From: an uncultured Bacteroides sp. | GTDB lineage: Bacteria > Bacteroidota > Bacteroidia > Bacteroidales > Bacteroidaceae | DNA: 61,715 bases | Direction of reading: 5' to 3' | NCBI GenBank assembly: GCA_947173895.1 | Contig: CAMWGU010000012.1 | Coordinates: 1 to 61,715 of the forward strand | Shown: positions 498-28,783 of the stretch, in pieces | Layout of the letters: the number at the start of each line of letters is the position of its first letter | Numbering within the stretch: position 1 is the first letter of the stretch | The notes under the pieces: generated by a model | Seen by the model: the letters and a program-made list of their open reading frames with translations, nothing else | Told to the model about the DNA's origin: nothing | Databases searched by the model: none | Made by a program: the position numbers and the translations under genes

Positions 498-527
498 GAC
501 TACCCTTTTTTTAATATACGCTGTCTT
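498..527 (+). promoter_or_regulatory. GACTACC-N17-TGTCTT element, site 1 (upstream of susC)
   Basis: GACTACC at 498-504 and TGTCTT at 522-527 are separated by 17 bp, preceded by an A-rich stretch. The same two blocks with the same spacing occur before three other transcription units (17,448, 26,203 and 28,754). The 17 bp gap fits a -35/-10 pair, so an alternative sigma factor promoter is the favoured reading. If so, the susC leader would be about 310 nt. Confidence 0.6.
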
Positions 528-677
528 AGTGGTGGAGTGAGATTTAATAAATCGAAAAAGAATAGAAAAAAGCTGGATGTGAATATGGATTAATTAATAT
601 ATTGTTTAACTTTAAAAAAAAGAATGAAATGCACAACAGGGATGATACAGGTTGAATCAGTAGGAACAGGAAGATGG

Positions 678-775
678 TGGATAAATAAAATCCGAAAGAT
701 GTGTCAGATCTTTCGGATTGAGGTAGCTTTCTTCCGGTTTGCATAGGGAATGCGATAGAAAGCTTTTAAGTGAAT
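678..775 (-). ncRNA. Candidate antisense small RNA in the susC leader (DonS-like layout)
   Basis: On the minus strand a Bacteroidetes -7 element TATCTTTG (complement of 780-787) points away from susC. About 60 nt further on is a perfect 12 bp stem (689-700 with 708-719, 7 nt loop) followed on that strand by a T-rich tail, which looks like an intrinsic terminator. Between them AGCTTTCT and AGAAAGCT (725-732 and 757-764) can form another hairpin. The implied transcript is about 95 nt and antisense to the susC leader. Cis-encoded antisense RNAs beside susC homologues that repress the PUL (DonS family) are described in Bacteroides. Assignment to that family is inference from position and architecture; the -33 element is poor. 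Confidence 0.55.
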
Positions 776-847
776 GATACAAAGATAGTAAAGTCATTTA
801 TTTAAGGCTTGGTTTATTCAAAAATTAATAATCAATTTGATTTATTT

Positions 848-3800
848 ATGAATTACAAAAAGAAGACTTTGTTAACGGTCACTGCTTTATTATGTTTGAA
901 TGCCAGTGTCCTGTCTCAGTCGGTATCTTTAAATCTGAAAAAGATGTCGGTAAAAGAGGCGATGAATGAAGTGAAGGATAAAAGTGGGTATTCGTTTGTC
1001 TATTCGGCAGGGGATATCAATACCAGCAAACAAGTAACGGTAAAGGCCAAACAGCTGGATGAAGCCATTCAGCAGATATTGGACGGCCAGGAAGTGACTT
1101 ACGAAATAAAGGGGAAGAATATTGTTATAAAGAAAATCGTGGTTTCTTCTCCGAAAAATCAAAAGAATCGTAAAATAACAGGTGTGGTAAAAGATGCCGC
1201 AGGTGAGGCCATTATCGGTGCGAATGTGGTTGTGGTAGGTGATAAGACCAAAGGTGTGATTACGGATTTTGATGGAAACTTTACTCTGGATGTGCCTGAA
1301 AATGGCAATATTGAAGTTTCTTATATCGGTTATCTGCCTCAAATAATTTCTGTTAAAGGAAAGACCGATTTTATAGTAAGCCTGAAGGAAGATACCAAAA
1401 CATTGGATGAAGTGGTTGTGATTGGTTATCTTACTCAAAAAAAAGGTTTGCTAACCGGATCAGTAGAAACAATGAAAGTGAGCGAGGAATTGAAGAACTT
1501 GCCTTCCACGGCTGCCGGAGAAATGCTGGTAGGTAAAATCGCAGGTTTGAATGTCGGTGCGGTCAATGCGGTTCCTGGTGCTGAACCGAGTCTTTCTATT
1601 CGTACGGGGTCTTCATGGCGCGGCGGTCAGGAAGTGATGTATGTTATCGATGGTATCGTACGTGGAGCGGGTGATTTCAATAGCTTGAGTCCGAACGAAA
1701 TTGAGGATGTCACTGTTTTGAAAGATGCGGCTTCTGCGGCTGTTTATGGTTCGCGTGCGGCCGGTGGTGTAGTAGTAGTGACCACTAAGAGAGGTGCCAG
1801 TGGTAAACCGACTGTTAATTATTCATATTCATATTCTATAGATAAGCGTACAAAGAACTCGGAGTTGACTTCCGGAGTCGAGACGTATGAATTGTATAAC
1901 CGCATGAATCCCGACCCGAATACCAACTGGACTCAGGACGAGTTGGATATGTTGGCTCAGATTAATGGAGGTTGGGGATACAATCAGTTGGATGCTATTT
2001 GGCAAGATCCGATGAGGCAGCAACACAATATCAGTATCTCGGGAGGTAATGAAAAAGTGAAATATTTTGCCGGCGGTTCATTGATCAAACAACAAGGATT
2101 CATTAAGCCGATGACATACGATAAGTATAATATCCGTTTGAATGTGACGGCTGATGTGACTGATGATTTGCAGATATTTACCGGCTTGGCTTTGTATGAT
2201 AACTATACTGGACACGTAGCTGCAAGTGAAGGTCCGTATAACACTTATCGTAAACTTCGTGTATGGCAGCCTGAACAGCCGGTATATACGGACGGTGGTC
2301 TGCCTATCGATTATGGATGGATTGGTAATGTGGGTGCGTGGGCAACCGGTGCATGTGGTTACGATAAGAGCCAATGGTTGAAGCCGCAGATGGTAGCCAG
2401 TGCCACTTACAAGGCTCCTTTCTTGAAAGGATTGAGTGCTAAAGTGACTTTTTCAAGAAACTGGTCGAATAGTGTCACTAAACTTTTCCGTAAGAAATAT
2501 GATATGATGGTGATGAAGCATTATGGTACGAACAATCACATCATTTCCACTAAGGACGAAGATATCCTGAGTACCCGTCAAAGTACTGATATAGGTAAGG
2601 ATTACATCGAACGTTCTTCTAGTTGGGGAAGCGACAAACAGTTTAACTTCCAGCTGTCATACGATAATACCTTCAACGAGAAACACCATGTAGGTGCTAC
2701 TTTTGTAACCGAGTGGACCGAAAGCGATGGTGCCGGTGTATATGCCGGTCGTGAGACATTTCCCGTTTATCTGAAGGATCAGTTCTGGGCTGCAAGTTCC
2801 AGTAGAGCGGATACTTATGGCGGCGGTGGTACGGATTGGGAGAGCGGACGTATGTCTTATATCGGCCAGTTGACCTATTCGTATGCAGATAAATATTTGT
2901 TGGCTTTCTCTTTCCGTGAAGATGGTTCCATGCAGTTTGCTCCGGGGCATCGTTGGGGATTTTTCCCTGCTATTTCTGGAGGTTGGGTCATTTCAGAAGA
3001 AAACTGGTTCAATAAAGAAGTGGTCAACTATTTGAAATTGCGTGCTTCTTATGGTATCACCGGTGATGACTCGGTCGGTGGATGGCAATGGCAGGAAAGT
3101 TATAACTCCGGTAACAGTGCTTTTTTCGGAGAAAGTGCTTCTAAGAATGTAGGTATCACTTACGGTTCGGTGGTAAATAAGAATTTGACTTGGGAAAAGA
3201 CCAAGAACTTCAATATAGCTGTTGATGCCGGTTTCTATGATCATTGGAATCTGACACTGGAATACTGGAAAAAGTCTACATACGATATCTTGGGTAGCCG
3301 TCAGGTTGCGTTGCCTCCTTCTTTCAGTTTGACTATGCCCGATGAGAATTATGGTAAAGCGGAAGCGCAAGGTTTTGATTTCAGCTTGAAATATAATGGC
3401 AAAGTGAGTGATGTGGAACTTTGGGGTGCTTTGACAGCTTCTTATGGATGGAACAAGTGTATTTTGAGAGACTATGCCGAAAATGCACAGGAAGTGGATA
3501 TTCCGGTAGGTAAATCATTCTCGCGTATTGTGGGATTGGATGCATGGGGGGTGATTCGCAATGAGGACGACTTGGCTCGTTTCAACGCAGAATATCCTAA
3601 TTATACACACAACGGACGTAAGCCGGAACTGGGTATGTTGGTTTATCGTGACCTTTCGGGTCCGGAAGGCAAACCTGACGGTTTGATCGACAGTTGGGAT
3701 AGAATTCAGTTGCGCGACAATAACAATGCTGTCTACACAGGATTGAATTTGGGTGGAAAATGGAAAGGACTGAGTATCGATGCTATGTTCTCAGGGCGTT

Positions 3801-4198
3801 TTGGTGCAGAACAATGGGTGACCGATGTTGCCGGTGGTGTGGAATGGAACCGTATGTGGAGAGATTGGTACACAGATAGCTGGACTCCTGAAAACCCGAA
3901 CGCTTCTTTGCCTCAGCGTATCACTGCCAATGGCTGGGCATCCTACAATGAAACCAGTAGCTTCTGGTTGAAGAAGAACGATTTCCTTCGTATGAAGTAT
4001 CTGACTATCAGCTATGATCTTCCCAAAGGACAATTTTACAATAAGATATTCGATAATATTCGTTTGTTTGCTTCCGGTACCAACCTGTTTGTGTTGAGTG
4101 GATTCAATAAAAAATACTGGGATCCGGAACTGGGTAATAATGGTTCAACCTTCCCGTTGCTTCGTTCATTCTCTTTTGGTATAGATGTTAAATTTTAA
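848..4198 (+). CDS. SusC-like TonB-dependent outer-membrane transporter with STN domain
   Basis: This is the outer-membrane beta-barrel that imports oligosaccharides with the SusD-like lipoprotein encoded just downstream, powered by TonB. I chose ATG 848, not 809, because it gives a clean signal peptide (MNYKKKTLLTV..., cleavage near residue 23). In order, the protein has an STN (secretin/TonB short N-terminal) domain at about 25-90, a carboxypeptidase-D regulatory-like domain at about 105-180, the SusC signature DEVVVIGY at about 187-194, a plug, and a long barrel ending in an aromatic residue (...GIDVKF). Length is about 1116 residues, normal for the STN-bearing class. In this family the STN domain passes a signal to a FecR-type anti-sigma factor and an ECF sigma factor. 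That pair is not in the window, and the first genes to the left are unknown. Confidence 0.96.
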   Translation: MNYKKKTLLTVTALLCLNASVLSQSVSLNLKKMSVKEAMNEVKDKSGYSFVYSAGDINTSKQVTVKAKQLDEAIQQILDGQEVTYEIKGKNIVIKKIVVSSPKNQKNRKITGVVKDAAGEAIIGANVVVVGDKTKGVITDFDGNFTLDVPENGNIEVSYIGYLPQIISVKGKTDFIVSLKEDTKTLDEVVVIGYLTQKKGLLTGSVETMKVSEELKNLPSTAAGEMLVGKIAGLNVGAVNAVPGAEPSLSIRTGSSWRGGQEVMYVIDGIVRGAGDFNSLSPNEIEDVTVLKDAASAAVYGSRAAGGVVVVTTKRGASGKPTVNYSYSYSIDKRTKNSELTSGVETYELYNRMNPDPNTNWTQDELDMLAQINGGWGYNQLDAIWQDPMRQQHNISISGGNEKVKYFAGGSLIKQQGFIKPMTYDKYNIRLNVTADVTDDLQIFTGLALYDNYTGHVAASEGPYNTYRKLRVWQPEQPVYTDGGLPIDYGWIGNVGAWATGACGYDKSQWLKPQMVASATYKAPFLKGLSAKVTFSRNWSNSVTKLFRKKYDMMVMKHYGTNNHIISTKDEDILSTRQSTDIGKDYIERSSSWGSDKQFNFQLSYDNTFNEKHHVGATFVTEWTESDGAGVYAGRETFPVYLKDQFWAASSSRADTYGGGGTDWESGRMSYIGQLTYSYADKYLLAFSFREDGSMQFAPGHRWGFFPAISGGWVISEENWFNKEVVNYLKLRASYGITGDDSVGGWQWQESYNSGNSAFFGESASKNVGITYGSVVNKNLTWEKTKNFNIAVDAGFYDHWNLTLEYWKKSTYDILGSRQVALPPSFSLTMPDENYGKAEAQGFDFSLKYNGKVSDVELWGALTASYGWNKCILRDYAENAQEVDIPVGKSFSRIVGLDAWGVIRNEDDLARFNAEYPNYTHNGRKPELGMLVYRDLSGPEGKPDGLIDSWDRIQLRDNNNAVYTGLNLGGKWKGLSIDAMFSGRFGAEQWVTDVAGGVEWNRMWRDWYTDSWTPENPNASLPQRITANGWASYNETSSFWLKKNDFLRMKYLTISYDLPKGQFYNKIFDNIRLFASGTNLFVLSGFNKKYWDPELGNNGSTFPLLRSFSFGIDVKF

Positions 4199-4217
4199 TT
4201 CGGATTAGTTTATGATC

Positions 4218-6002
4218 ATGAAAAAGAATATATTAGTAGGTTTGTTGTTGTTTCTAGCTTCAAGTTGTAGCTTGGACTATCCGAACAACAGTGTAATTTC
4301 TCCGGATGACGTGTGGAGAGATAAAGTAATGGTGAATGCATTCTTGACCGATATTTATGGACGTATGTTGCCGGGATGGCCGATAGCAGGTAATGGCACC
4401 GATGAGGCGATGGATGCTCCTCGCAGTATGAGTGAGTTTGATTTGGGCCATTTTTCGGTGGCACAAAACGGACAAGGATTGTCGTATGGCAACATTGACC
4501 GTATCAACTTCTTTTTGGACCAGTTGGAACAGACCACTGTGCTGACCGAGACTGAGTATAATCAGATGAAAGGACAAGCTTTGTTTTGGAGAGCATGGGA
4601 CTATTGGGGAAAAGTATGGAATTTGGGTGGTGTGCCTTTGATTCTGCACTTCCAAGATGTCACCAATGTGGAATCCCTGTTCTTGCCGCGTAATAGTACG
4701 TCCGAGTGTGTCGCTCAGATCCTGAAGGATTTGGATGATGCCATTAGTTTGTTGCCAGACACTTGGACAGGAGACAATTACGGACGCATAGATAAAGGTA
4801 TTGCGATGGCTTATAAGGGACGTGTGTTATTGCAATATGCCAGCCCTTTGTTCAATCCTAACCACGACACGGCTCGTTGGCAACAGGCCTATGATGCAAA
4901 CAAGGCGGCTGTCGATTTTTTGAAAGCGCATGGCAAAGGCTTGTACCAAGGTCGGTTTGAAGACATTTGGTATGATGAATTGAACTGTGAGGTGGTAATG
5001 GTCAACCAATATTATTATCCGGATCATGTGTACAGTCAATACATGACTCGTCCGGAGCCGTTGACCAAAGACTATGCAAACTTTAATCAGGCTATTTATC
5101 CGTTGCTGATGGCTTATCCGAAGTTGGATGGTTCGAAATTGGAATTGGACATCAACCGTCTGGCCGTTGATCCGGCCTATAACGAGCAGTTCCTGACTGA
5201 TTTTTATATGGGTCGTGATCCTCGTTTTTATGCTACAATTTTCTGTCCGGGTACAGTGTATCCCACAGAGGAACCGATTGTGAAAGGTATGAGCTATTGG
5301 AATACCTGGAAACAGATTCCTGATCCGGGAACTGGAGAACTGGTTTATCAGTCTATGACTTATGAACAGATAAACAGAGGTGTTGGTAGTAGTAATTCCG
5401 GTTATTTCCAGAAAAAAGGAATCGACAAGTCGTTGGCTGTAGTAAATGTACATGAGGCTGAAACCGACTGGATTGAAATCCGTTTTGCCGAAGTGCTGAT
5501 GAACTATGGTGAGTGTGCCAATGAACTGGGTAAATCCGACGAAGCTCTTGACGTATTGTATCAGATACGTAAGCGTGCCGGTATTCAGGATAGTGGCAGT
5601 GGTAAGTATGGTATTACAGCTACTTCTACCGATGAAATCCGTCAGGCTTATATGGATGAACGCTTTATCGAATTCGCATACGAAGGAAAGCGTCGTACTG
5701 ACTTGCGCCGTTGGAAACGTTATGACATTCTGAACACAATGAAGACCCGTGCATGTTTGTATCCGGTTTTGAAGGATAATAAGAACTTGGAAGGATTTGA
5801 CTGGACCAAGGATATGTATGATCCGGAAGTACGTAAGTTGTTCCGTATGGATTACATTCCAAATGCGGATAACGATGATTATTATACATTTAATCTTCCT
5901 TTGGATCATTGGTTTGCTCCTATCAGCCAAGATAACTTGGATCGTAACTCTTTGTGGGAACAGAACAATGAATGGGGCGGTACATTCGACCCGTTGAAAT
6001 AA
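4218..6002 (+). CDS. SusD-like surface glycan-binding lipoprotein
   Basis: It lies 19 bp after susC in the same operon and should cap the SusC barrel to capture glycan at the cell surface. The lipoprotein signal is clear: a short hydrophobic stretch ending in LASSC with Cys near residue 18. The ATG at 4218 (MKKNIL) fits better than 4212. The SusD/RagB pattern is visible in the helical (TPR-like) N-terminal half, for example QALFWRAWDYW and AMAYKGRVLLQYASP, and in the C-terminal half with EIRFAEVLMNYGECANELG and EFAYEGKRRTDLRRW. Length is about 595 residues, typical of the family. The specific ligand cannot be read from sequence. Confidence 0.95.
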   Translation: MKKNILVGLLLFLASSCSLDYPNNSVISPDDVWRDKVMVNAFLTDIYGRMLPGWPIAGNGTDEAMDAPRSMSEFDLGHFSVAQNGQGLSYGNIDRINFFLDQLEQTTVLTETEYNQMKGQALFWRAWDYWGKVWNLGGVPLILHFQDVTNVESLFLPRNSTSECVAQILKDLDDAISLLPDTWTGDNYGRIDKGIAMAYKGRVLLQYASPLFNPNHDTARWQQAYDANKAAVDFLKAHGKGLYQGRFEDIWYDELNCEVVMVNQYYYPDHVYSQYMTRPEPLTKDYANFNQAIYPLLMAYPKLDGSKLELDINRLAVDPAYNEQFLTDFYMGRDPRFYATIFCPGTVYPTEEPIVKGMSYWNTWKQIPDPGTGELVYQSMTYEQINRGVGSSNSGYFQKKGIDKSLAVVNVHEAETDWIEIRFAEVLMNYGECANELGKSDEALDVLYQIRKRAGIQDSGSGKYGITATSTDEIRQAYMDERFIEFAYEGKRRTDLRRWKRYDILNTMKTRACLYPVLKDNKNLEGFDWTKDMYDPEVRKLFRMDYIPNADNDDYYTFNLPLDHWFAPISQDNLDRNSLWEQNNEWGGTFDPLK

Positions 6003-6068: not shown

Positions 6069-6090
6069 TTCATTATGATATAGAAAAAAT

Positions 6091-8376
6091 ATGTTTATGA
6101 AGAAGAAAATATTACCATTGATCGCTGCTTGCTCTTTGTTGTATGCTTGCAGTTCAAGCAGTCCCCAGTCTTTTCAAACCGATTATTTCGGTATCGATGT
6201 CGATTCGCGTGGTTATATCACCGGCATGTACAATCTGACGCGCGAGAACCGCAATTTCAGTCCGGCCGACCAACCGTCGCCTTTGCTGTCCTTGTATGAT
6301 GAGGATGTGAAACGCTATTATTATCCGCAAAAGGCCAGCTATGCGGGCGGCAAATACAAGCTGGAGTATGAAAACGGTTCGGTGGCGACCGTGCGGCTGG
6401 AGGAAAAAAATAAATACTTTAAACTGACGCTGGAGGCTTTGGAGCCGCGTGAAGGAATAGACGGAGTGCAGTGGGGAAATTATTATACCAACATCAATAA
6501 TATTCTGGGCGAAATCATCGGCGTGGCCCGCGATACTTCGGTGGCTGTAGGATATGCCATTGGTGCTTTGGCCTTGGACGACAATACGATTGGTGGAGAG
6601 TCTCGCTACACTTCCGAAACAGGTCCTTCGGGCTATATTGCTCATTCGCCCGATCCGGTGAATCATCCGTTGCCGCTTACGCTGCACGAGGGGCAGCAGT
6701 TCACGATGGGGGGCGACGGCATCAATGACGTAGCTTTCTATAACCGCAAGGAGTCGTATTTCCGCATCCTGTACGGACTGGCGGCTTTTGTTGATTGCAA
6801 CGGGCGTATCAATATCCGCTATCATTCGCGCGACCGCCGCAAGGGAAAGATGATTTATTCGCCGGAGGGCAATCCCATTTTCCAAAACAATGAGCCGAAC
6901 CACATGATGAGGCAGGATGTGCCTGGAGTGGATTTCATCGGTTCGTCCATCGCCTTGTGGGGAAGTCCGGACAGCATCGCTTTGACGGACGTGATTCAGG
7001 ACATTGTGCTGAATGAGGGGCTTCCTTATCCTACTTTCCAAGGAAAATGGGTGAAAGATCCGACTTCGTTCATGCCCGACCTGCGCACCTACGGGGGGCT
7101 GATGGACAGCGTGGCCTCGTATGCCAAACAGATGGGGCTGAAAGTGGTGCATACCTACGACCAGCCTTTCCTGCAAGCCGACAGAGGCAACGGTGGATTC
7201 CTGGACGGACCGGACCATGAAAAGAAACGCTATCATTTCACAGACAAGGACTTGTCTACGCGTGAATATGCCGACCTGTTGGCGAAGGACGGATTAATCC
7301 TTGGACGCACCTCTATCTCCAATTCTATGGCACCCGGCACCCGAGATTGCAGCCCGGTTCCTTCGGACAGCATCTGCATCCTTCACCGCCGTTTCCTGAC
7401 GGAGGACCTGAACGAGACGGATACGCTGATTTATATTGATGACCCTACGCATCTGGAAGAAATTGCCTGCTGGGAAGGACATAGCAAGGAACTGAACATG
7501 GTCAAGATAGGCAAGGAACTGATTCATTACCTTGGAGTGACGAAGGAAAAACCCTATCGGCTGCTGAAGGTGACACGCGGTTACTGGAACACCCGCGCTA
7601 CGGCACATGCCAAAGGTGATGCCGTAGATAAACTTCAGCCTGCCGTGGGCGGTGCCTATACCGGGCTGATTCCGAACCTGGAATTGCAGGACGAACTGGC
7701 ATACCACTATGCCAATATCTGCAAGAACAGCGGCTTGGGCATGTTCGACTATGACGGACAGGAGTTCTTTTTCCATACCGGGTTCGGCTGTTACGGGGTA
7801 AAGCGTTTCTTCCGCGAGATGTTTGCCCGGGCAAAGGAATATGGCTTGCCGGACATCCGTTTCACAGGTGCCACGCTGTCGGAAGGTTCCTGGCATTACC
7901 AGAGTATATGGAATGTGGGAGGCGGATTGAACATCTATGATGTGAAGAAGCGTGTATGGGGTAGCACCACCAGCCAGGGAAAAGACTTGCGCGATGTGAC
8001 ATACGCCAACTTCTTTCCTTCTTCATTCGGTGCCAACTTCCCGATTACGGCCGAATCGACTGTGGAAGATTTTGAGCATATCGAGGCTACGGCCGTGGGA
8101 TATGGGGTTACTTATGCCATGACTTTGGGTCAGAAGGACGTAGAGAGCTGCCCGCAGAAGTATGCCATCTTCAACGTCATCCGCACCTGGGAGGAAGCCC
8201 GCCGGGCGAATGCGTTCCCCACTTATATCCGCAAGATGCTGCAAAATCCGGCATTGAGCTGGCACTTGGAAAAGAAGGCGGACAAGGAATGGACGTTGTA
8301 TCAGATGGAGAACGGGCAGAAAGGGCGTTCGTTTGATTTGAAAGCGGATGAGAAAAGTATTTGTTTTGTGCCGTAA
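6091..8376 (+). CDS. Unassigned PUL lipoprotein enzyme, triplicated family, copy A
   Basis: I do not recognise a named family. The protein is about 760 residues and starts with a lipoprotein signal ending LLYAC (ATG 6091 or 6097). Residues about 25-300 look like a beta-sandwich domain. The C-terminal half looks like a TIM-barrel hydrolase, with a conserved acidic signature FDYDGQE near residue 552-558 and LSEGSWHYQS near 594-603. A small beta domain (about 465-520) with K-IG-ELIHY-GV and VTRGYW--RATAHAKGD interrupts the barrel. Homologues at 12,304 and 29,008 share all of these. The Asp and Glu of DYDGQE are the best candidates for catalytic residues. The last 220 bp are almost identical to copy B, unlike the rest. 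A glycoside hydrolase role is inferred from PUL context and architecture only. Confidence 0.75.
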   Translation: MFMKKKILPLIAACSLLYACSSSSPQSFQTDYFGIDVDSRGYITGMYNLTRENRNFSPADQPSPLLSLYDEDVKRYYYPQKASYAGGKYKLEYENGSVATVRLEEKNKYFKLTLEALEPREGIDGVQWGNYYTNINNILGEIIGVARDTSVAVGYAIGALALDDNTIGGESRYTSETGPSGYIAHSPDPVNHPLPLTLHEGQQFTMGGDGINDVAFYNRKESYFRILYGLAAFVDCNGRINIRYHSRDRRKGKMIYSPEGNPIFQNNEPNHMMRQDVPGVDFIGSSIALWGSPDSIALTDVIQDIVLNEGLPYPTFQGKWVKDPTSFMPDLRTYGGLMDSVASYAKQMGLKVVHTYDQPFLQADRGNGGFLDGPDHEKKRYHFTDKDLSTREYADLLAKDGLILGRTSISNSMAPGTRDCSPVPSDSICILHRRFLTEDLNETDTLIYIDDPTHLEEIACWEGHSKELNMVKIGKELIHYLGVTKEKPYRLLKVTRGYWNTRATAHAKGDAVDKLQPAVGGAYTGLIPNLELQDELAYHYANICKNSGLGMFDYDGQEFFFHTGFGCYGVKRFFREMFARAKEYGLPDIRFTGATLSEGSWHYQSIWNVGGGLNIYDVKKRVWGSTTSQGKDLRDVTYANFFPSSFGANFPITAESTVEDFEHIEATAVGYGVTYAMTLGQKDVESCPQKYAIFNVIRTWEEARRANAFPTYIRKMLQNPALSWHLEKKADKEWTLYQMENGQKGRSFDLKADEKSICFVP

Positions 8377-8403
8377 ATTGATTTTTATAAAACTATATAT
8401 AAA

Positions 8404-10920: not shown

Positions 10921-10927
10921 AATAAAT

Positions 10928-12250
10928 ATGGCGATGAAAAGAAAGATTATTTGTTTATTGTCATTGGAGATTTTGCTCCCTCTTAATTATTTAGGTGCAC
11001 AAGAGTCACGTTTTGGCTTTTGTAATCGGGTGGAGCCTTTCAAGTGGGCAGATAATACACCCGTAGATTGCCCGTTCCCGCAGTCGAAGAAATATTCGGA
11101 AATCGTCTTTACCGGGCGTTATGCCAATTACACGGATGCCGATACGTGGTATCCCAGTTGGGCGGACGATGACTGCATGTATTCGCCTTGGACGGATGGG
11201 TATTTGGTTGAAGGGCATGAGAATGAATTTGTGCCTTTCAGCACATTCAAGGAACAGCATCCGGACTATGCGTGCTATTCGCTTCAATACACTTATAAGG
11301 GGGAGGTTCGGAAGCCGGCAACCGGACAGGCTAAAATCATTGGTGATGATCCGATGAATCTGCAAATAGTCAATCTGGGACGCACCGAGGGAAGTCCGGC
11401 TCCTTATGGTGGCAGGTATCCTGCCGGAAGTTTGGTCTATAATGGGGTTTGGTATTATGGAACTTATTGTTTGACCAACCGCTCGGATAGTAATTGTGGC
11501 GGGGTGGGATGGACACAGTTCGGGCCATTTGTCGGTTTCCGTATCTCCAAAGATAAAGGAAAGACATGGACGGATACGCCTTGTACTCCGGAAAAGCCGC
11601 TTTTCGGTGAAAATCCAAGTGTCGCCCCGGTAAAGATAGGAGCTCCTCATTTTGTGGATTTTGGAAAGAACATGCAGTATTCTCTAGATGGCTATGCCTA
11701 TCTGACCGCCCATGGTGCTACCGATCCGAATGCATGGAATGGTTGGATACAGGGAGATCAGATTTATTTGATTCGGGTAAAGCCGGGTGAGCAAACGATG
11801 AATGATCCGTCGGCCTACGAATTTTATGCCGGTAAGGACAAGAAAGGCAAACCGGTTTGGACGAAGCGATTTTCTGAGATTAAACCTTTGTTGGAATGGC
11901 AAGGACATTTGGGTTGCGTGACGGTGACCTACAATCCGGGATTAAAGAAATATTTGATGTGTATCACCCGTGGGCATCGCAACTCTGCTATGGGGGTAAT
12001 ACCGACAAGTAACCGCTATGATACAATGATTCTTGAGTCGGACCAATTGGATGGGAACTGGAAGTTGTTAAAGTATTTGGATCGTTTTGGCCCGGTGGCT
12101 TATTTTGTGAATATTCCGTCTAAATTTATCTCTAAGGATGGTAAGACCATGTGGCTCTCTTATTCAGCCAACTGGCATGATAAGAATATGCCCGGAAATC
12201 CCGAAGGAAGCTATTATTCGTTTTCGTTACATGAATTTATGGTGGAGTAA
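10928..12250 (+). CDS. Secreted beta-propeller protein, possible glycosidase (unassigned)
   Basis: ATG 10928 (or 10934) is preferred over an upstream in-frame ATG that overlaps the previous gene, because it yields a signal peptide ending LNYLGAQ. The roughly 440-residue mature protein has features of five-bladed propellers of the GH43/sialidase-like type: repeated blade edges such as SKDKGKTWTDTP and SLDGYAYLTAHGA, and single-domain size. Conserved-looking acidic residues occur in TDADTWYPSWADDDC and GWIQGDQIYLIRV. It resembles DUF4185-type propellers, but I cannot place it firmly. It follows the metallophosphatase gene by 7 bp, so the two are co-translated in one operon. The reaction is unknown. 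Confidence 0.7.
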   Translation: MAMKRKIICLLSLEILLPLNYLGAQESRFGFCNRVEPFKWADNTPVDCPFPQSKKYSEIVFTGRYANYTDADTWYPSWADDDCMYSPWTDGYLVEGHENEFVPFSTFKEQHPDYACYSLQYTYKGEVRKPATGQAKIIGDDPMNLQIVNLGRTEGSPAPYGGRYPAGSLVYNGVWYYGTYCLTNRSDSNCGGVGWTQFGPFVGFRISKDKGKTWTDTPCTPEKPLFGENPSVAPVKIGAPHFVDFGKNMQYSLDGYAYLTAHGATDPNAWNGWIQGDQIYLIRVKPGEQTMNDPSAYEFYAGKDKKGKPVWTKRFSEIKPLLEWQGHLGCVTVTYNPGLKKYLMCITRGHRNSAMGVIPTSNRYDTMILESDQLDGNWKLLKYLDRFGPVAYFVNIPSKFISKDGKTMWLSYSANWHDKNMPGNPEGSYYSFSLHEFMVE

Positions 12251-12303
12251 ATATGATGTCGGAATACTTTTTTATAATGAAAGAATAATAAAAGAACAAT
12301 ATC

Positions 12304-14586: not shown

Positions 14587-14640
14587 GTTTATTGTAAGAA
14601 GACTGTAAAAGGAATATTTTAGATATTATGATTGTTTATA

Positions 14641-14810: not shown

Positions 14811-14853
14811 ATGGAAGGTAACCTCGTTTTTGAGATAAGATAGGATGCTGTAA

Positions 14854-14886
14854 GCAATAGTAATTCATCTGATAAGTAACTATTGC
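14854..14886 (+). terminator. Possible terminator hairpin before GH95 gene
   Basis: GCAATAGT (14854-14861) and ACTATTGC (14879-14886) form an 8 bp stem with a 17 nt loop, followed by TATTTTCT. The T-tract is weak, so termination is only a possibility. Confidence 0.35.
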
Positions 14887-14911
14887 TATTTTCTATAGCG
14901 GTAGCTACTTA

Positions 14912-14919
14912 TATCTTTG
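14912..14919 (+). promoter_or_regulatory. TAnnTTTG -7 element before GH95 gene
   Basis: TATCTTTG matches the Bacteroidetes housekeeping -7 consensus and lies 29 bp before ATG 14949. No convincing -33 TTTG is visible. It would let the GH95 gene be transcribed apart from the GACTACC-type promoters. Confidence 0.45.
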
Positions 14920-14948
14920 TAAGATTAATTTGTATATGTAGTTGAATC

Positions 14949-17447: not shown

Positions 17448-17477
17448 GACTACCTCTATATGAAAATGGTCTGTCTT
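17448..17477 (+). promoter_or_regulatory. GACTACC-N17-TGTCTT element, site 2
   Basis: GACTACC at 17448-17454 and TGTCTT at 17472-17477 have the same 17 bp gap as site 1 and an A-rich stretch just upstream. It lies 39 bp before ATG 17516, a short leader that fits a -35/-10 reading best of the four sites. Confidence 0.62.
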
Positions 17478-19828: not shown

Positions 19829-19858
19829 TACCATTAATTATTATAATTATAGAAATTT

Positions 19859-22825
19859 ATGAATTTGAGAAAGAAGATTTTGTTGCTGCTGTTGGTAATG
19901 TGGAATTTGTCCGTCACAGCTAAAGTAAAACCTATTGTACACTATAATTTCGGAAGGGTAGGAAATGTCACTTATGCGGTGGCACCCGAAAAGATAATGC
20001 CTGTTTTCGGAAGAGGTGAACTGGTAGTTGTGGGACGGCCTGTTTTTTATGCCGATGCTCCAAGTGACAAGAAACTGAAAGGAGAAGGAGGTATTTTGTT
20101 TAATGGAAACGGTGATGGATATGGTTTGACAGAATCGTTTGGCTCTTCATCTGAAAATCAGGTATTGGAAGTTTGGGCAAAACCTCGAACTGGTGCGGAG
20201 AAAGCAGGTAGTGAACAGGTGTTGCTTGCTCATGGTACAGGCAAGGATGGATATGTGTTTACTCATAAAGGCGGTCATTGGTATCTGACTTTTGGGGGCT
20301 CGAGACGTGTTGAAGTAGGAGAAGTTTCACACAATGCCTGGGTGCATCTGGCTATGGTAGTGGAAGATGGAAAAGGTAGTGTTTGGATGAATGGGAAGGA
20401 GGCCGGTACTTTCAAACCGACTCAAGCAATTGCCCCTTGTTTCTCTCTTGCTATTTCGGAAGATGGGAAAAGTTCTTTTTATGGTGAAGTATATGAGATA
20501 AGGTATAGTACTTTCGCTACCGGTAAGTTCAATCCAGAGACTGATTTCTTATTGGATTATAAAAAGATAAAGGAAGCCGACCGGCAACGTTTGTCCGAAC
20601 GGCGGGAGCTGGTGCGTCAGTTGGAGCTGGAGGGAACCGGTAAGAAAATAGTAACGGAACTGTCTGATGTGCGTCAGGAAAAAGACTGGCTCGTTAACCG
20701 GATTGACGAACCGGCTTGTTTGTTTGTGAAGAAATCGGCAGACGGTATGACTTCACACATCCAGTTGAATAATGGATTGGTTTCACGTACCTTTTATGTA
20801 GGCGAGAATATAGCTTGCGTAGGTTATAAGAATCATTCGAATGAGGCTGAGTTTCTGCGAGCCGTAAAACCGGAAGCACGCGTCTGTATAGATAGTGTGT
20901 GGTACGAGGTAGGCGGACTAAAAGGACAACCGGAATTGTCTTATTTGCTGGACAGCTGGTATGCGGGCATGGAAGCTTCCGACCAGGCTTTTACCTTGGC
21001 GAAGGTGGAGACCGGCCTTCCGCTGAAGCGCTATCCGTGGACACCGAAGTACAATGCCGTGCCTGCCGATTGGCCGGCCAAGGGATTGCGTATGGAAATG
21101 ACGTTCGTGCCGACGGAAAACATGGTGGATGTGAAAGACATAACAGTGAAAGTCAACTATGAGATTTATCAGGGGTTGCCGTTGGTTGCCAAATGGATTG
21201 AGGTGATTAATGAGGGCGAGAAACCTATCTTGCTGAATGATATGGAATGTGAAGTATTGGCGGTCAATCAGGACCAGGTGAAACGTCTTCATGTGGAAAG
21301 TGATTTCTCTTTTGCTTTGGTGAATGCTGACATTGAAGGAAGTGCTTTGATGCATTACGCCGGAACTCCGAAGGCTTATCATGTGGGTAGCTCTACTACT
21401 AAATGGACTGTCGACAAGGAGTATAATACGTGGGCTAGTCATAATCAGGCCGAAGACAAATTCTTGGGATTCCCTCATCACAACTTGCTGCTGAGCAAGC
21501 TGCCCATGGGACCTTATACAAAGGTGGGAAAAGAAACTCCTTTTAAATCGTATATCACTTTTGAATTGCTGCAAGACAGCGACGACCGTGAACGCCAGTC
21601 ACTCGGACACCGGAGGATGTACAAGAAACTGGCTCCGCAAACCACCGAATCGCTGATAGCGGGTGGTATCACTTCGCACGACGAAACAAAGTTGAAAGGG
21701 TTCATTGACCAAATGGCGGAGCTGGGACTGGAACAGTTGGATATTCAGGCATGGCCGGGGGTAAGCCATGATAATCTGGATTCGGCTTACGTGCAGTTGT
21801 GGCACCGAGTGGCCGCGTATGCCAAAGAACGAGGCATCATCATGGGCGGTTATGAATTGCAGGTGGCTTCTCGCGGACGAGGCAAGGAGGTGGATTGTGT
21901 GCATCCCGAAACCGGAAAACCGGGCAGCCTTTTCGGGCAAAGTGTCTGCATTGCCAGCCAATGGAAAGACACGTATTATCCTAAGATGTGGGAATTCTTT
22001 GATAAGACCGGCTTTATGACCTATAATATGGATGGCCCGTATCACGGTGATCCGTGTGCCTCGGCTGTTCATCCTCATCATACAGGCTTGGAAGATTCGC
22101 AATGGCAACAATGGAAAACGCAGGTGGAAGTGATTCATGAATTGCAACGACGGGGGATGTATATTCCTATCCCGGACTGGTATTTCCTGAACGGGCAGAA
22201 TGCTACCGGAATGGGATACAGGGAGGCGAGTGCCAACTTGACCCCGCAGCAACAACTCTTGCTGGGACGCCAGTATATCTACGATGGTACTTGGCATAAG
22301 ATTCCGCCTATGGGATGGATGACTTTGCAGTTGGTTGGCTTTTATACCAACGACCCGCGTGTGGGATTGGAGCCGTTGTGCGAGAATCTGGACCGTTATG
22401 AAACGCAACTGGTGCAGTTCTTGGGAAGCGGTTGCCATCTGACCATCCGTGGAAACCGTTTGTATGACACTCCGGAAACCAAGCGGATGGTTACGAAATG
22501 GATTGACTGGTTCAAGAAATACCGCGACATTCTGACTTCCGACATCATTCACGTCAGTCGTCCCAACGGGCGTGACCTGGATTGCCTGATGCATGTCAAT
22601 CCTTTTATTGACCATAAGGGAATGGTGGTGATTTTCAACCCAACCGAACGGGATATAACTAAGGAAATGAAGTTGCCGTTATATTATACGGGACTGAAAG
22701 GGAAGGCTACTGTTATGGCTGAAGACGGAACAAGGAAAACCTATTCGCTGAATGGGAAGGAAGAACTGGCGTTGCCTGTCTCGGTGAAAGCGGGAGGAAC
22801 GGTATGGTTTCTGATTGAGGAATAA
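19859..22825 (+). CDS. LamG domain plus TIM-barrel glycosidase-like protein
   Basis: 988 residues with a signal peptide ending LSVTAK. Residues about 20-235 form a LamG/concanavalin-type jelly roll (LFNGNGDGYGLTESFG, VLEVWAKPR, AWVHLAMVVEDGKGSVWMNG). A second part (about 290-560) looks like a GH36-type N-terminal beta domain. The part at about 590-880 looks like a clan GH-D or GH31-like barrel, with LDIQAWPGVSHDN, FMTYNMDGPYHGD and IPIPDWYFLNGQN as probable active-site strands; Asp in YNMDG is a candidate nucleophile. A small C-terminal beta domain follows. I cannot assign a CAZy family. The LamG-coding stretch looks more AT-rich than what follows from about 20,570, which suggests a fused domain. 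Confidence 0.7.
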   Translation: MNLRKKILLLLLVMWNLSVTAKVKPIVHYNFGRVGNVTYAVAPEKIMPVFGRGELVVVGRPVFYADAPSDKKLKGEGGILFNGNGDGYGLTESFGSSSENQVLEVWAKPRTGAEKAGSEQVLLAHGTGKDGYVFTHKGGHWYLTFGGSRRVEVGEVSHNAWVHLAMVVEDGKGSVWMNGKEAGTFKPTQAIAPCFSLAISEDGKSSFYGEVYEIRYSTFATGKFNPETDFLLDYKKIKEADRQRLSERRELVRQLELEGTGKKIVTELSDVRQEKDWLVNRIDEPACLFVKKSADGMTSHIQLNNGLVSRTFYVGENIACVGYKNHSNEAEFLRAVKPEARVCIDSVWYEVGGLKGQPELSYLLDSWYAGMEASDQAFTLAKVETGLPLKRYPWTPKYNAVPADWPAKGLRMEMTFVPTENMVDVKDITVKVNYEIYQGLPLVAKWIEVINEGEKPILLNDMECEVLAVNQDQVKRLHVESDFSFALVNADIEGSALMHYAGTPKAYHVGSSTTKWTVDKEYNTWASHNQAEDKFLGFPHHNLLLSKLPMGPYTKVGKETPFKSYITFELLQDSDDRERQSLGHRRMYKKLAPQTTESLIAGGITSHDETKLKGFIDQMAELGLEQLDIQAWPGVSHDNLDSAYVQLWHRVAAYAKERGIIMGGYELQVASRGRGKEVDCVHPETGKPGSLFGQSVCIASQWKDTYYPKMWEFFDKTGFMTYNMDGPYHGDPCASAVHPHHTGLEDSQWQQWKTQVEVIHELQRRGMYIPIPDWYFLNGQNATGMGYREASANLTPQQQLLLGRQYIYDGTWHKIPPMGWMTLQLVGFYTNDPRVGLEPLCENLDRYETQLVQFLGSGCHLTIRGNRLYDTPETKRMVTKWIDWFKKYRDILTSDIIHVSRPNGRDLDCLMHVNPFIDHKGMVVIFNPTERDITKEMKLPLYYTGLKGKATVMAEDGTRKTYSLNGKEELALPVSVKAGGTVWFLIEE

Positions 22826-22857
22826 TGATTGCATATTATACTAGCGACAAAAAATAA

Positions 22858-25233
22858 ATGAGTATGAATCTGAGGAATACGATTAAAACAATGCTTCTGT
22901 CTCTTGCCCTGGTGGCAGGAACAGGGGCATACGGCCAGTGTTATCAGAAAACAGGCCAGGGAATCAAGGCTGTGGCTTGTGGTATGGATGTCGAATTACA
23001 GTTCTATGCGCCGGAAATAGTACGGATAATCAAACAGCCCGGTAATACGGAAAGAACAAAAGGAAGCTTTGCGGTGGTCAAGACACCCGAGATGACTAAG
23101 TTTGTGGCCGAAGAACGGGAAGGCCGGATATGGCTGGAGACCGATAGCCTGGCAATTACGCTGGACTTGCAGACCGGAAAGATAGCCTATGCCGACCGGA
23201 AGGGGAACCTCTTGCTGGAAGAGAAGGAGTATGGCACCCAGTTCACACCGGTGGAATATGGAGAAGATAAGACGTATCTGGTCCGCCAGGCTTTTAGGTT
23301 GGAGGAAGGAGAAGCTGTGTATGGATTGGGGCAACACCAGAAGGGGAAAATGAACCAGCGCAACCAAATGGTGCATTTGCGTCAGACGAACACCGAGATT
23401 GCCATTCCCTACATACAGTCCATCAAAGGGTATGGCTTGTACTGGGATAATTACTCGCCTACTACCTTTACGGACAACCCGATGGAGACGGCTTTCGACT
23501 CTCAATACGGAGAGTGTGCCGATTATTATTTCATGTATGGTGGCAGTGCCGGCAATGTCTTGAAATGCATGCGTGAACTGACGGGGCAGGTTCAGATGAA
23601 TGCCTTGTGGACCTATGGGTTCTGGCAGTCGAGGGAGCGCTATCAAAGCCAGGAAGAAATGCTGGATGTGGTCAGGAAATACCGTAAGTTGCAGGTACCC
23701 CTTGATGGCATTGTGCAGGACTGGCAGTATTGGGGAGTCGATCCGCTTACCTGGAATGCGGTGGAGTTTGGCAATCCGCTTTTCCCCGACCCGAAGAAAA
23801 TGGTTGACGAGGTGCACGGCATGAATGCGCACATCGCCATTTCTATATGGCCTTCTTTCGGCAAGAGTACAGCCATCCACAAGGAATTGAAAGAGAAAGG
23901 TGCCTTGCTCGATTTCAAGACCTATCCCGAACAGGCGGAGGTATATGATGTGTTCCGTCCCGAAGCACGTGAGATTTATTGGAAATACATTCATAAGAAT
24001 ATGTTTTCCATCGGCATAGACGGATGGTGGCTGGATGCTACCGAACCGGAGTTCTCGGACAAGGACGAGAAACTGAACCAAAAGACGTATGCAGGGACGT
24101 ACCGGAAAGTATACAATGCCTTTCCTATCGTATCCGTGGGAAGCGTGTATGAGCACCAGCGTGCGGTTTCTTCCGATAAGCGTGTGTTTATTCTTACCCG
24201 TTCGGCATTTGCCGGGCAGCAGCGTTACGGGGCAAACTCCTGGTCGGGAGACATACAGGCCACTTGGGAGGTATTGCGCAAGCAAATTTCTGCCGGGCTG
24301 AACTTTTCCGTGTGTGGCATCCCTTATTGGAATACCGATATAGGCGGTTTCATCACGTGGAACTCGTACAGAGAAGGGGTGCAGGACCCTGCTTACAGGG
24401 AATTGTATGTCCGGTGGACACAGTTCGGGGCGTTTACTCCCATGATGCGCTCTCACGGGACGAATACGCCGCGCGAAATATACCAGTTTGGTGAAAAGGG
24501 TTCATGGGAATTCGATGCGTTGGAGAAATACATCAACTTGCGCTATCGTATGTTGCCTTACCTTTACTCCACCGCCTGGGGAGTGAGCCGAGACGGGGAT
24601 ACGTTTATGCGTCCTTTGTTTATGGATTTCCCTCATGATGTCCGGGTGCGTGATTTGGACGATCAATACATGTTCGGACGGTCGTTGATGGTAGCTCCGG
24701 TGACGGAGCCCATGTATGTGGACCGCGACAAGAAGGTGAACCTGAAGGATATAAAGTCCAGACAGGTTTATCTGCCTTCCGGAAGCGAATGGGTTGATTT
24801 CTGGACTGGAGAAAAATGGCAAGGAGGGCAAACCGTCGGCAAGGAAGCTCCTATTGACGTGATGCCGATTTATGTCAAGGCCGGAAGCATTCTTCCTGTC
24901 GGGCCTAAAGTGCAATATGCTACCGAAAAGAAATGGGACAAGCTGGAACTTCGTATCTATCCCGGAGCAGATGGTGAGTTCGTGTTGTATGAAGATGAGA
25001 ACGATAATTATAATTACGAGAAAGGACTTTATTCTACCATTACTTTCAAATGGGACAACCGGAAGAGGGTGCTTGACATAAGCGACCGGACAGGAAAGTT
25101 CCCGGGCATGTTGGACAAGAGGGTTTTCACCATCGTGCTGGTAGAAAAAGGACATGGTGTGGGAGACTGCTCCACGGTTAAGGCAAACAAGGCCGTTGCT
25201 TACCATGGTAAACAGCTGCGGGTAAAATTATAA
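22858..25233 (+). CDS. GH31 family alpha-glycosidase
   Basis: This is a GH31 retaining alpha-glycosidase. After the signal peptide (cleavage near GTGAYG) come an N-terminal beta domain, a short PA-like beta region with AVYGLGQHQKG, the barrel, and C-terminal beta domains with FVLYEDENDNYNYEKG. Asp393 in GWWLDATEPEF is the nucleophile. Asp465 in SWSGDIQATW is the acid/base. RSHGTNTPREIYQFG also fits the family. Length of about 790 is normal. GH31 covers alpha-xylosidase, alpha-glucosidase, alpha-galactosidase and others, and the subfamily cannot be settled here. It ends the unit begun at 17,516 and is followed by a terminator. Confidence 0.93.
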   Translation: MSMNLRNTIKTMLLSLALVAGTGAYGQCYQKTGQGIKAVACGMDVELQFYAPEIVRIIKQPGNTERTKGSFAVVKTPEMTKFVAEEREGRIWLETDSLAITLDLQTGKIAYADRKGNLLLEEKEYGTQFTPVEYGEDKTYLVRQAFRLEEGEAVYGLGQHQKGKMNQRNQMVHLRQTNTEIAIPYIQSIKGYGLYWDNYSPTTFTDNPMETAFDSQYGECADYYFMYGGSAGNVLKCMRELTGQVQMNALWTYGFWQSRERYQSQEEMLDVVRKYRKLQVPLDGIVQDWQYWGVDPLTWNAVEFGNPLFPDPKKMVDEVHGMNAHIAISIWPSFGKSTAIHKELKEKGALLDFKTYPEQAEVYDVFRPEAREIYWKYIHKNMFSIGIDGWWLDATEPEFSDKDEKLNQKTYAGTYRKVYNAFPIVSVGSVYEHQRAVSSDKRVFILTRSAFAGQQRYGANSWSGDIQATWEVLRKQISAGLNFSVCGIPYWNTDIGGFITWNSYREGVQDPAYRELYVRWTQFGAFTPMMRSHGTNTPREIYQFGEKGSWEFDALEKYINLRYRMLPYLYSTAWGVSRDGDTFMRPLFMDFPHDVRVRDLDDQYMFGRSLMVAPVTEPMYVDRDKKVNLKDIKSRQVYLPSGSEWVDFWTGEKWQGGQTVGKEAPIDVMPIYVKAGSILPVGPKVQYATEKKWDKLELRIYPGADGEFVLYEDENDNYNYEKGLYSTITFKWDNRKRVLDISDRTGKFPGMLDKRVFTIVLVEKGHGVGDCSTVKANKAVAYHGKQLRVKL

Positions 25234-25532: not shown

Positions 25533-25549
25533 TTTCGTTTGTCGTAAAA

Positions 25550-26202: not shown

Positions 26203-26232
26203 GACTACCTTTGAATGAAAATTTTCTGTCTT
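26203..26232 (+). promoter_or_regulatory. GACTACC-N17-TGTCTT element, site 3
   Basis: GACTACC at 26203-26209 and TGTCTT at 26227-26232, again with a 17 bp gap and an A-rich stretch upstream. It lies about 190 bp before the DUF5703 gene, implying a leader near 180 nt in which I see no clear structure. Confidence 0.6.
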
Positions 26233-26420
26233 GGTGGCAATAGGACTTGTGTGTATTCGGAATTAGTATAATGACTGTATTTTGAAACTTGTCAATGTGT
26301 GTATAGATTAATCATCGTGTAAAATGTTGTTAGTTAAAGTGTTTGTTTATTAGATAGGTAATGTTTTTTTAGGGGTAAAAAGATTGTTTGAAAGGGATAA
26401 CAGGTTGATAAGTGAATTAT

Positions 26421-28685
26421 ATGAAATTGAAAATGCGTATGCAAAATAAAATGTTACTGGGGGCTATAGGGTTATTGTTATGCAACCTTTCACTTTTTGC
26501 CCAATCCGAAGCCGTAAATAAGTATGCTGTGGAATGGAATCAGTTTTCAAAAAATGCTTCCGAGTCATTCCCTATTGGTAATGGAGAAGTGGGAGCGAAT
26601 GTGTGGCTGGAAGAGAATGGAAATTTAGTATGCTATATATCCCATACGGATGCGTGGTCGGAAAATTCGTCGTTATATAAGTTAGGCCGGATCAGGCTCT
26701 CTTTCTTTCCGGCATTGCAGAAAGAAGGGCTTTCGGTTCGTCAATTTCTAAATCTGGAAGAAGGAAAGATAGAAATGCGGCTTACCGATGGCAAGGAACA
26801 TGTGTCGTTGGATTTTTGGGTGGATAGTGAATCGCCTGTTATTTATGTAAAGGGTACTTCCAGTTATCCGGTTCATGTGACGGCTTCTTCTGAAATATGG
26901 CGTACACAGGCACGGTTGATACCGGCTCGGGAAAGACATTTCGCGCTGCAAGGCTGTAAAGTGGATTCATTGCTTACGGAATATGCCGACGTAGTGGAAG
27001 ACAGGAACGATCATTTGATTGTTTACCATCGCAATGAACATTCTATTTATCCATTTACGCTGGATTTGCAGCATTTGTCGGGAGAAGGAAGCAAGGGGGA
27101 TCCCTTTATGAATCGTACAATGGGATATGCAATATCGGGAGAGAACTTTGTAAAGCAGACGCCGACCAGCATCTGTTCTCGTACGGAAGTCAAGGAGTTT
27201 GGTTTGAAAGTAGCTGCTCATGTGGAACAGACGGAAACCGCGCAGGAGTGGATAGATCATATCGAAAAAATGGTCGGTAAGGCTCCCGGATTTGATGAGG
27301 CTGCTCGGCGGACGGCTGTATGGTGGAAGAACTATTGGAATAAGAGCTATATAATAGTACAAACGCCGGATGAAGCAAAAGGAGATAAGATAACTCAGGC
27401 CTATATTCTGCAAAGTTGGATGGCTGCTTGTGGTGGAAGAGGAAATTATCCAATCAAGTTCAATGGATCTATTTTCACGGTTGATCCTGTTTTTACGGAT
27501 GCAAGCCGGAACTATAATCCGGATTTCCGTTTGTGGGGACCTGACTATTGGTGGCAAAACACTCGTTTGATTTATCATCCGATGCTTAAAAGCGGCGATT
27601 TTGAGATGATGCGGGTTTTGTTCCGTCATTTCTACTCCAACTTGCCGATGCTGAAACAGAATGCAAAGGTTTTGTTCGGAGCAGACGGGGCGGTGAATCC
27701 GGAGACGTCTACGATTTTTGGAACGTTTGTGAATCATGATTATGGTTGGGAACGTATCGGTCGGGAAGCGGAAATGATAGAAAATCCATACGTTCGTTAT
27801 TATTGGAGCTCGGGCTTGGAGATAGTGGGGATGATGTGCGATTATTATCATTATACATCGGATAAGGCATTTGCCAATGACACGTTGTTGCCTATGGCGC
27901 GTGAAATATTGAAATTTTATACTTCATTCTTCCCTCGTGATGAACGGGGCAAAATACTGATCACTCCGGCGCATTCTCTTGAAATGTATTGGGATGATGT
28001 GAAGAATGATTTACCCAATGTGGCCGGTCTGCATTATGTTGTGAAAGCTTTATTAGGCTTGCCTGACGATTGTGGCACACGGGAGGACCGTAGTAGCTGG
28101 AAGACTCTGCTTGGCTTGTTGCCCGATATTCCTATGAGGGAAGTGGATGGAAAAATATTGTTCTCGCCGGCAGAAGTATATGATGCTACAAAATCAAACA
28201 ATCAGGAGAATCCGGAATTGTATGCGGTATTTCCTTTTGCATTATGTCATATCGCCACACGGGATTGTGCGGCCGGCATTCGTACTTATGAGAGCAGAAA
28301 AATTCGTAATACCGTAGGATGGACACAGGATGGACAGCAAGCCGCTCGGTTAGGATTGACGGAAGAGGCTGCCGCCAACTTGTGGGCAAAAGTTCAAAAC
28401 AGTCATATTAATCATCGTTTCCCGGCTTACTGGGGACCCAATTTCGACTGGACTCCCGATCAGAATCACGGAGGTAATCTTTTGTTGACTTTGCAAGAGA
28501 TGGTGTTGCAGGTGTATGACCGATCGGTTTATTTATTGCCTGCTTTTCCAAAAGACTGGAATGTGTCTTTCAAATTGTATGTTCCCGGAAACAATACGAT
28601 AACCGGAATATATCAGGATGGTAAATGGGTGAAAAAGCCTTCATTACAGGAAAAAACAAATCTGAAAATACACATGAAACGATAG
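26421..28685 (+). CDS. DUF5703 N-terminal domain plus six-hairpin glycosidase barrel
   Basis: ATG 26421 is used; the frame extends upstream only through a GTG at 26412. The signal peptide ends near SLFAQ. Residues about 25-300 match the DUF5703 pattern: NASESFPIGNGEVGANVWLEE, YISHTDAWSENSSLYKLGR. The C-terminal half is an (alpha/alpha)6 barrel with RYYWSSGLEIVGMMC, ITPAHSLEMYWDD and TRDCAAGIRTYESRKIRNT. This layout puts it with the GH95/GH65-like superfamily. The His/Glu in PAHSLEMYWDD lie near where GH95 has its acid, but the assignment is tentative. It stands alone between promoter sites 3 and 4. Confidence 0.8.
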   Translation: MKLKMRMQNKMLLGAIGLLLCNLSLFAQSEAVNKYAVEWNQFSKNASESFPIGNGEVGANVWLEENGNLVCYISHTDAWSENSSLYKLGRIRLSFFPALQKEGLSVRQFLNLEEGKIEMRLTDGKEHVSLDFWVDSESPVIYVKGTSSYPVHVTASSEIWRTQARLIPARERHFALQGCKVDSLLTEYADVVEDRNDHLIVYHRNEHSIYPFTLDLQHLSGEGSKGDPFMNRTMGYAISGENFVKQTPTSICSRTEVKEFGLKVAAHVEQTETAQEWIDHIEKMVGKAPGFDEAARRTAVWWKNYWNKSYIIVQTPDEAKGDKITQAYILQSWMAACGGRGNYPIKFNGSIFTVDPVFTDASRNYNPDFRLWGPDYWWQNTRLIYHPMLKSGDFEMMRVLFRHFYSNLPMLKQNAKVLFGADGAVNPETSTIFGTFVNHDYGWERIGREAEMIENPYVRYYWSSGLEIVGMMCDYYHYTSDKAFANDTLLPMAREILKFYTSFFPRDERGKILITPAHSLEMYWDDVKNDLPNVAGLHYVVKALLGLPDDCGTREDRSSWKTLLGLLPDIPMREVDGKILFSPAEVYDATKSNNQENPELYAVFPFALCHIATRDCAAGIRTYESRKIRNTVGWTQDGQQAARLGLTEEAAANLWAKVQNSHINHRFPAYWGPNFDWTPDQNHGGNLLLTLQEMVLQVYDRSVYLLPAFPKDWNVSFKLYVPGNNTITGIYQDGKWVKKPSLQEKTNLKIHMKR

Positions 28686-28753
28686 AATACCATAACGTTT
28701 TTCTTCCTTATTAGATGAAAAATGGCTACTTGGAATAAAAAAGAGAGGGTTCA

Positions 28754-28783
28754 GACTACCCTTTCATCTTGATTTATTGTCTA
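28754..28783 (+). promoter_or_regulatory. GACTACC-N17-TGTCTA element, site 4
   Basis: GACTACC at 28754-28760 and TGTCTA at 28778-28783; the gap is again 17 bp. It precedes the seven-gene unit that starts at 29,008, with an inferred leader of about 220 nt. The 322 bp gap between genes otherwise shows only AT-rich sequence. Confidence 0.58.

Follow-up and report, generated by a model that had tools for sequence, protein, structure and literature searches.

The question raised by this locus, a contig of an uncultured Bacteroides sp. analysed here over its whole 61,715 nucleotides (the window), is how four separate PUL transcription units could be switched on together. Control of PULs by ECF sigma factors and FecR proteins is already known, and ECF sigma/anti-sigma pairs govern many PULs. 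Prediction of ECF promoters for PULs is described as challenging and in need of start-site data (PMC3878776), and PMC7366714 notes that, in 2020, none of the ECF sigmas of B. thetaiotaomicron had a known motif. The original prediction, made from the letters of the window, was that two short blocks, GACTACC and TGTCTW, form the promoter of a dedicated sigma factor which joins the units into one regulon. Our analysis leads to much the same answer: the element is very probably the promoter of a FecI-like ECF sigma factor. The likeliest candidate is the sigma encoded on contig C65 of the same genome, which would be held by the adjoining FecR and would activate the four PUL units (Table 1).

Table 1. 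Features of the window; leader lengths are counted to the start codon chosen in this analysis, and bits are scores with the junction-built matrix.
Feature	Position	Strand	Description
Site 1	498..527	+	GACTACC-N17-TGTCTT, before susC-susD unit, 320-nt leader, 22.8 bits
Site 2	17448..17477	+	before GH95-like/LamG/GH31 unit, 38-nt leader, 18.6 bits
Site 3	26203..26232	+	before DUF5703/GH95-like gene, 188-nt leader, 18.6 bits
Site 4	28754..28783	+	before GH92/GH2 unit, 224-nt leader, 20.5 bits
susC leader	528..847	+	perfect 11-bp hairpin at 690-718
SusC-like TonB-dependent transporter (unit 1)	848..4198	+	STN domain (residues 48-96), carboxypeptidase-regulatory-like domain, plug
SusD-like protein (unit 1)	4212..6002	+	domain search
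Rest of unit 1, five genes	6091..17231	+	761-aa unknown, metallophosphatase/PQQ propeller, DUF4185-like (below cut-off), 760-aa unknown, GH95
Unit 2	17516..25233	+	GH95-like, LamG-type protein, GH31
Unit 3	26421..28685	+	DUF5703 + GH95-like
Unit 4	29008..43443	+	unknown, GH92, GH120-insertion/CBM6/beta-helix, GH2, DUF5054, GH92

A pattern search of the window reproduced the four predicted positions as exact matches to GACTACC-N17-TGTCTW, all on the forward strand and with block starts 24 bp apart in 4/4. Each lies in the gap preceding a PUL unit, 38-320 nt upstream of the start codon taken, and has an A-run of 6-8 within the 30 nt before it, in line with the A-rich stretch noticed at the outset. 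The absence of a site before the core genes was also borne out, no match of comparable score being found before the genes from 44006 on. The whole genome (3.26 Mb, 143 contigs) contains seven exact copies, the four of the window and three elsewhere (C2:25438, C2:38876 on the reverse strand and C11:268). When the spacer was varied from N5 to N30, eight exact matches were obtained, seven with N17, one with N10 and none with any other spacing, against 12 for the reversed control across all 26 spacings; the predicted 17-bp gap is thus a fixed property of the element in this genome. Looser matches are background, so the intact element alone stands out: at up to three mismatches the window gives 23 matches vs 17.4 expected, which is background, and at up to two mismatches the genome gives 104, fewer than the 212 of the reversed-pattern control. 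The nine single-mismatch matches in the genome were rejected as further sites in general, since six of them fall within ORFs; the other three (on C65, C7:33931 and C20:17097) are outside main ORFs and keep CTACCC. By eye, site 2 and C2:25438, and likewise C2:38876 and C11:268, may be duplicate copies.

Three of the usual traits of an ECF promoter are present, namely two conserved blocks with fixed spacing, a GTC/CGT-like -10 block (TGTCTW in the window and YGYCTW at the junction sites described below) and a copy of the element at the locus of the sigma itself. A fourth, the AAC-type -35 block, is absent, the conserved core being CTACC; AAC in the -35 element is described in PMC8103513 as a hallmark of early-studied ECFs which was later not required. 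In addition, the four site-bearing gaps contain no housekeeping pair (TTG-N-TANNTTTG, at -33/-7) and only a single lone TANNTTTG, which overlaps site 3. A housekeeping promoter in these gaps was rejected on this ground, and the finding also favours a dedicated sigma factor. Over 14500-34400, scans for sigma-70 promoters (40 vs 36.2) and for terminators (18 vs 16.5) stayed at the level of shuffled sequence. Judging from gene order, each unit would be a single transcript. Two more gaps among the PUL genes are without a site, 14587-14948 (best score 2.9) and 33589-34261 (best score 6.3). By eye, the former holds a lipoprotein-like start broken by stops among the genes of unit 1, and the latter a GH43-type start separated by stops from a CBM6-like end, as of a decayed PUL gene within unit 4. 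Rfam gave no match at gathering score in the window, including the susC leader.

The window itself supplies no candidate for a reader of the element, as no sigma factor, HTCS or SusR was found among the 28 window proteins scanned, but a candidate pair is encoded elsewhere in the genome. Near the end of contig C65, an ECF sigma gene (17874-18476; sigma-70 r2 and r4 domains) is followed by a FecR anti-sigma gene (FecR and FecR_C domains), and between them, at C65:18496, lies a single-mismatch copy of the element, TACTACCC...TGTCTT. Relatives were sought in 151 genomes of the family (the present one among them), a subset of a larger group. The C65 sigma has a homologue (E of 1e-30 or better) in 14 of the 151, again with this genome counted. 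Among the 150 other genomes, the exact motif (with Y after CC) has one match in each of seven. Two of these (G018 and G055) are directly behind C65-like sigma genes that a separate protein search had found (57% and 52% identity), and a third, in G027, lies between genes, that genome also encoding a sigma homologue; the remaining four are within ORFs, G062 being the one genome among them that likewise has a homologue. The sigma gene of G018 (L111) has an internal stop, yet its junction promoter is an exact match.

The position between sigma and anti-sigma genes recurred throughout the junctions examined in this clade. The element is present at 10/10 sigma-FecR junctions examined (C65, C4, IMSAGC_004, G055, G018, G080, G062, G097, G210 and G503), with N17 in nine and N18 in one, 10-45 nt upstream of the first ATG, and Pfam finds FecR and FecR_C domains in the protein that follows at all ten. 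In 500 rounds of shuffling, a mean of 0.008 and a maximum of one of the ten junctions carried the element; the pattern used for this count was formulated after the sites had been seen. The longest FecR ORF at C4 and G210 already opens upstream of the last base of the element, and the position 'between' depends there on taking the next ATG as the start, and in G055 the element overlaps the sigma stop codon. Two clade members without a same-strand downstream FecR (G027 and G136) and a second G097 copy are outside the count of ten. All ten sites have C after CTACC, where window sites 2 and 3 have T. Of four more distant sigmas (39-40% identical), two, G022 and G087, show the element with N18, G048 has by eye a shifted CGTCAT, and G069 has no same-strand FecR downstream. 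As for the other FecR pairs of the genome itself, C34 has no junction match, the match at the C29 junction (GCCTGCC...CGCCTT, N18, beginning before the sigma stop) is loose and was taken as chance, and C71 and C14 were inspected by eye only.

A matrix was then built from eight of the junction sites, none of them in the window, leaving out G062, which is near-identical to G080, and G503, which has N18. It ranks the four window sites above everything else there, the next score being 13.5, and 200 shuffled windows gave a mean of 0.02 matches at >=18.5 bits and a best score of 19.6. This test is independent of the window sequences, though several of the eight sites were first noticed by resembling them: C65, C4, G018 and G055 surfaced as matches to the window motif and IMSAGC_004 through its PUL and the motif, and G080, G097 and G210 were reached through the sigma alone.

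The tie between sigma and PUL is clearest in Bacteroidaceae bacterium IMSAGC_004, where a single 54-kb contig (28) carries CACTACCC...TGTCTT between a sigma and a FecR gene and, 12.7 kb on, GACTACCC...TGTCAT, with one mismatch (L053:6194), before susC and susD. A third, weaker site (GACTACCC...TGCCAT, 16.7 bits) follows 12.6 kb beyond. Across the whole of that genome, matches with one mismatch at most do not exceed background (16 vs 20 for the reversed control); three of the 16, including the sole intact one, are on contig 28. Its SusC, SusD and two following proteins are 63%, 64%, 89% and 75% identical to those of the window, the next protein of the row matching C105 (75%) instead. Moreover, the susC leader is 66% identical to its IMSAGC_004 counterpart (L053:6224-6552; 209/317 aligned bases), where the hairpin recurs with one mismatch. 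Compared with the 17 sigmas and 10 FecRs of the present genome, the IMSAGC_004 pair is nearest to that of C65 (sigma 58.6%, FecR 62.3%), followed by that of C4 (49% and 46%). Since the pair linked to the orthologous PUL is closest to C65, the C65 sigma is likely to be the source for the window PUL, to judge from these identities, the two being on separate contigs in this genome. C65 stops 165 bp past fecR, and the window, with its susC, starts at a contig end 497 bp before site 1, so that in this assembly a putative linkage of the two meets contig ends on both sides.

Synteny elsewhere was less helpful. The Parabacteroides SusC orthologues adjoin ECF-FecR pairs of another clade, and assignment of the sigma by this route failed, as those pairs are about 28-31% identical to C65 and the four junctions tested are without the element. 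A related set on C105, FecR-SusC-SusD (L144, L042), has a SusC about 54% and a SusD 64% identical to those of the window and a FecR 77% identical to the FecR on C85, and a matrix scan of C105:5000-9673 gave no high-scoring site.

The predicted regulon is not confined to the window. The pattern CTACCY-N16-YGTCTW has 11 matches in this genome vs five for the reversed control. Besides the four window sites and the junctions of C65 and C4, these comprise two on C2, one on C11, C7:33931 and C20:17097. C2:38876 and C11:268 are upstream of DUF1573 genes (L010:3698-4770 and L011:418-1209), and C2:25438 has no clear intact gene of the same strand nearby. C7:33931 precedes an open frame, 632 aa or longer, for which Pfam, NCBIfam and PDB gave no match. 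About 700 bp past C20:17097, beyond a copy of the repeat described below, a protein is encoded that weakly matches chitobiose phosphorylase (E=0.0018). A fulvocin C-related protein (NF033852) adjoins one of the element-led DUF1573 genes. As to the original prediction, the motif is rare, with seven exact copies in the genome, and the grouping of the four window units is supported; in addition, the regulon would reach beyond PUL genes, as 2/7 exact copies precede DUF1573 genes.

Because the element is common to the four PUL units and to related sigma/inhibitor junctions, one sigma most likely switches them all on. Which one is less certain, because the sigma on contig C4 (47-48% identical to that of C65) has a similar site at its own FecR junction, CACTACCC-N16-CGTCTT, and C4, or C65 and C4 together, might read the element, giving two FecR pathways with one promoter code. 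We consider this rather unlikely: TGTC is found at the C65 site and at all window sites and CGTC at C4, and the PUL-linked IMSAGC_004 pair, as described above, is nearer to C65 than to C4 in both of its proteins.

Other readings would do away with the sigma factor altogether. The blocks could be the operator of a hybrid two-component (AraC-type) regulator, a SusR-like protein or a repressor, as many PULs are under such control and the motifs predicted for these regulators likewise consist of two blocks with a long spacer (PMC3878776). Those motifs, however, are described there as direct repeats, whereas GACTACC and TGTCTW do not repeat each other in either direct or inverted orientation. The 28 scanned window proteins offer no regulator of this kind, though one may lie further upstream, as the contig begins 497 bp before site 1. 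The location of the element at sigma/anti-sigma junctions also speaks against an operator, and an HTCS/SusR operator was rejected as very unlikely because the blocks are unlike each other and no such gene is among the scanned proteins. It is still harder to believe that the element is simply carried by a repeat and has no regulatory role. A family of ~350-bp repeats does have copies ahead of sites 1 and 3, and others near C2:25438 and C20:17097, but its distance to the element varies (about 150 bp at site 1 and 268 bp at site 3), sites 2 and 4 showed no copy next to them, and sigma-fecR junctions in other genomes have the element as well; the unequal distances led us to reject this reading. 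The repeats themselves (window 1-348, 25609-25935 and 61244-61575) have CGTACGTACGTG-like ends and internal inverted similarity, and the copy at the window start is 69-86% identical to aligned copies, which also occur on C2, C7, C20 and C57.

A promoter of the C65 sigma factor is therefore preferred over these readings, and the prediction that a dedicated sigma unites the units draws its support from the junction copies, the STN-type SusC and the conservation of the element upstream of orthologous SusC. The mechanism may be pictured as follows. GACTACC, with its core CTACC, would serve as the -35 and TGTCTW as the -10 element of a promoter bound by the FecI-like sigma, which the neighbouring FecR would restrain. 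Import of an inducing glycan through the SusC of unit 1, whose STN domain is well recognizable (PF07660, E=2.3e-12), would be signalled by that domain to FecR. The sigma thus freed would let RNA polymerase start at the four PUL promoters, at the distant copies and at the one that separates the sigma gene from fecR. The sigma gene itself would be transcribed from its own promoter, as a housekeeping-type pair, TTG-N17..23-TANNTTTG, is present within 150 bp upstream of the sigma gene in four of nine cases examined (C65, IMSAGC_004, G210 and G503; shuffles, mean 0.2 and maximum 3) and was not found within that distance in the other five. This pair resembles the housekeeping promoter form described for Bacteroides (PMC7366714). 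With a housekeeping pair before the sigma gene and the element before fecR, in those four the sigma looks housekeeping-driven and the anti-sigma ECF-driven, so the sigma would raise its own inhibitor, a negative feedback, along with the importer and hydrolases of the dispersed units. The suggested design is unlike the positive autoregulation reported for most ECF operons in PMC8103513.

The proposed system resembles FecI/FecR/FecA, both of E. coli fec and of Bacteroides ECF-sigma/anti-sigma PULs, in its ECF sigma, its FecR with FecR_C and its STN-bearing TonB-dependent transporter. Transcription of fecIR in E. coli is stated not to be autoregulated (PMC9249621), whereas here the element lies at the junction of the sigma gene with fecR and also precedes several separate units. 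In the HasI/HasS system as outlined in the same paper (PMC9249621), the sigma raises its anti-sigma, hasS, and hasI is not autoregulated, which is similar, but that system serves haem uptake and the present one a multi-promoter glycan PUL. PUL24 of B. thetaiotaomicron, with BT1877/BT1876, likewise has sigma-linked 5' ends before separate PUL genes, one of them 291 nt before the susC homologue and without housekeeping consensus (compare the 320-nt leader here), but the section on it (PMC11501099) states no promoter motif. An ECF-type -10 box with CGT is described for another member of the Bacteroidota, Flavobacterium psychrophilum (the SM6 motif, compared here by its description), tied to type IX secretion genes rather than PULs (PMC9723704). 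Finally, SigW-1 of B. thetaiotaomicron is a remote ECF sigma controlling part of PUL59, as here, but it belongs to ECF251, and the account in PMC12596196 places a TGTT element near -10, with a motif that did not reach significance. The literature searched, in which the ECF reclassification paper and the bulk of subscription titles are missing, showed no such motif for this sigma clade. The kind of system is already known; what is new is the promoter code, where it sits (at the junction of sigma and anti-sigma genes) and how it has spread to separate units.

For the Bacteroidales more widely, a further reading, on which we are evenly divided, is that a clade of FecI-like sigma factors has a common code, CTACC-N17/18-YGTCTW, between sigma and anti-sigma genes, with the housekeeping polymerase serving the sigma gene and the sigma in turn serving the genes of its inhibitor and importer. 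Both in this genome and in IMSAGC_004 the promoter would have been copied to separate units, parting the PUL from its sigma and, in the former, drawing in DUF1573 operons. If the cognate promoter is legible at the sigma/anti-sigma junction in this way, regulons could be called from sequence alone, and each would come with a concrete motif to test.
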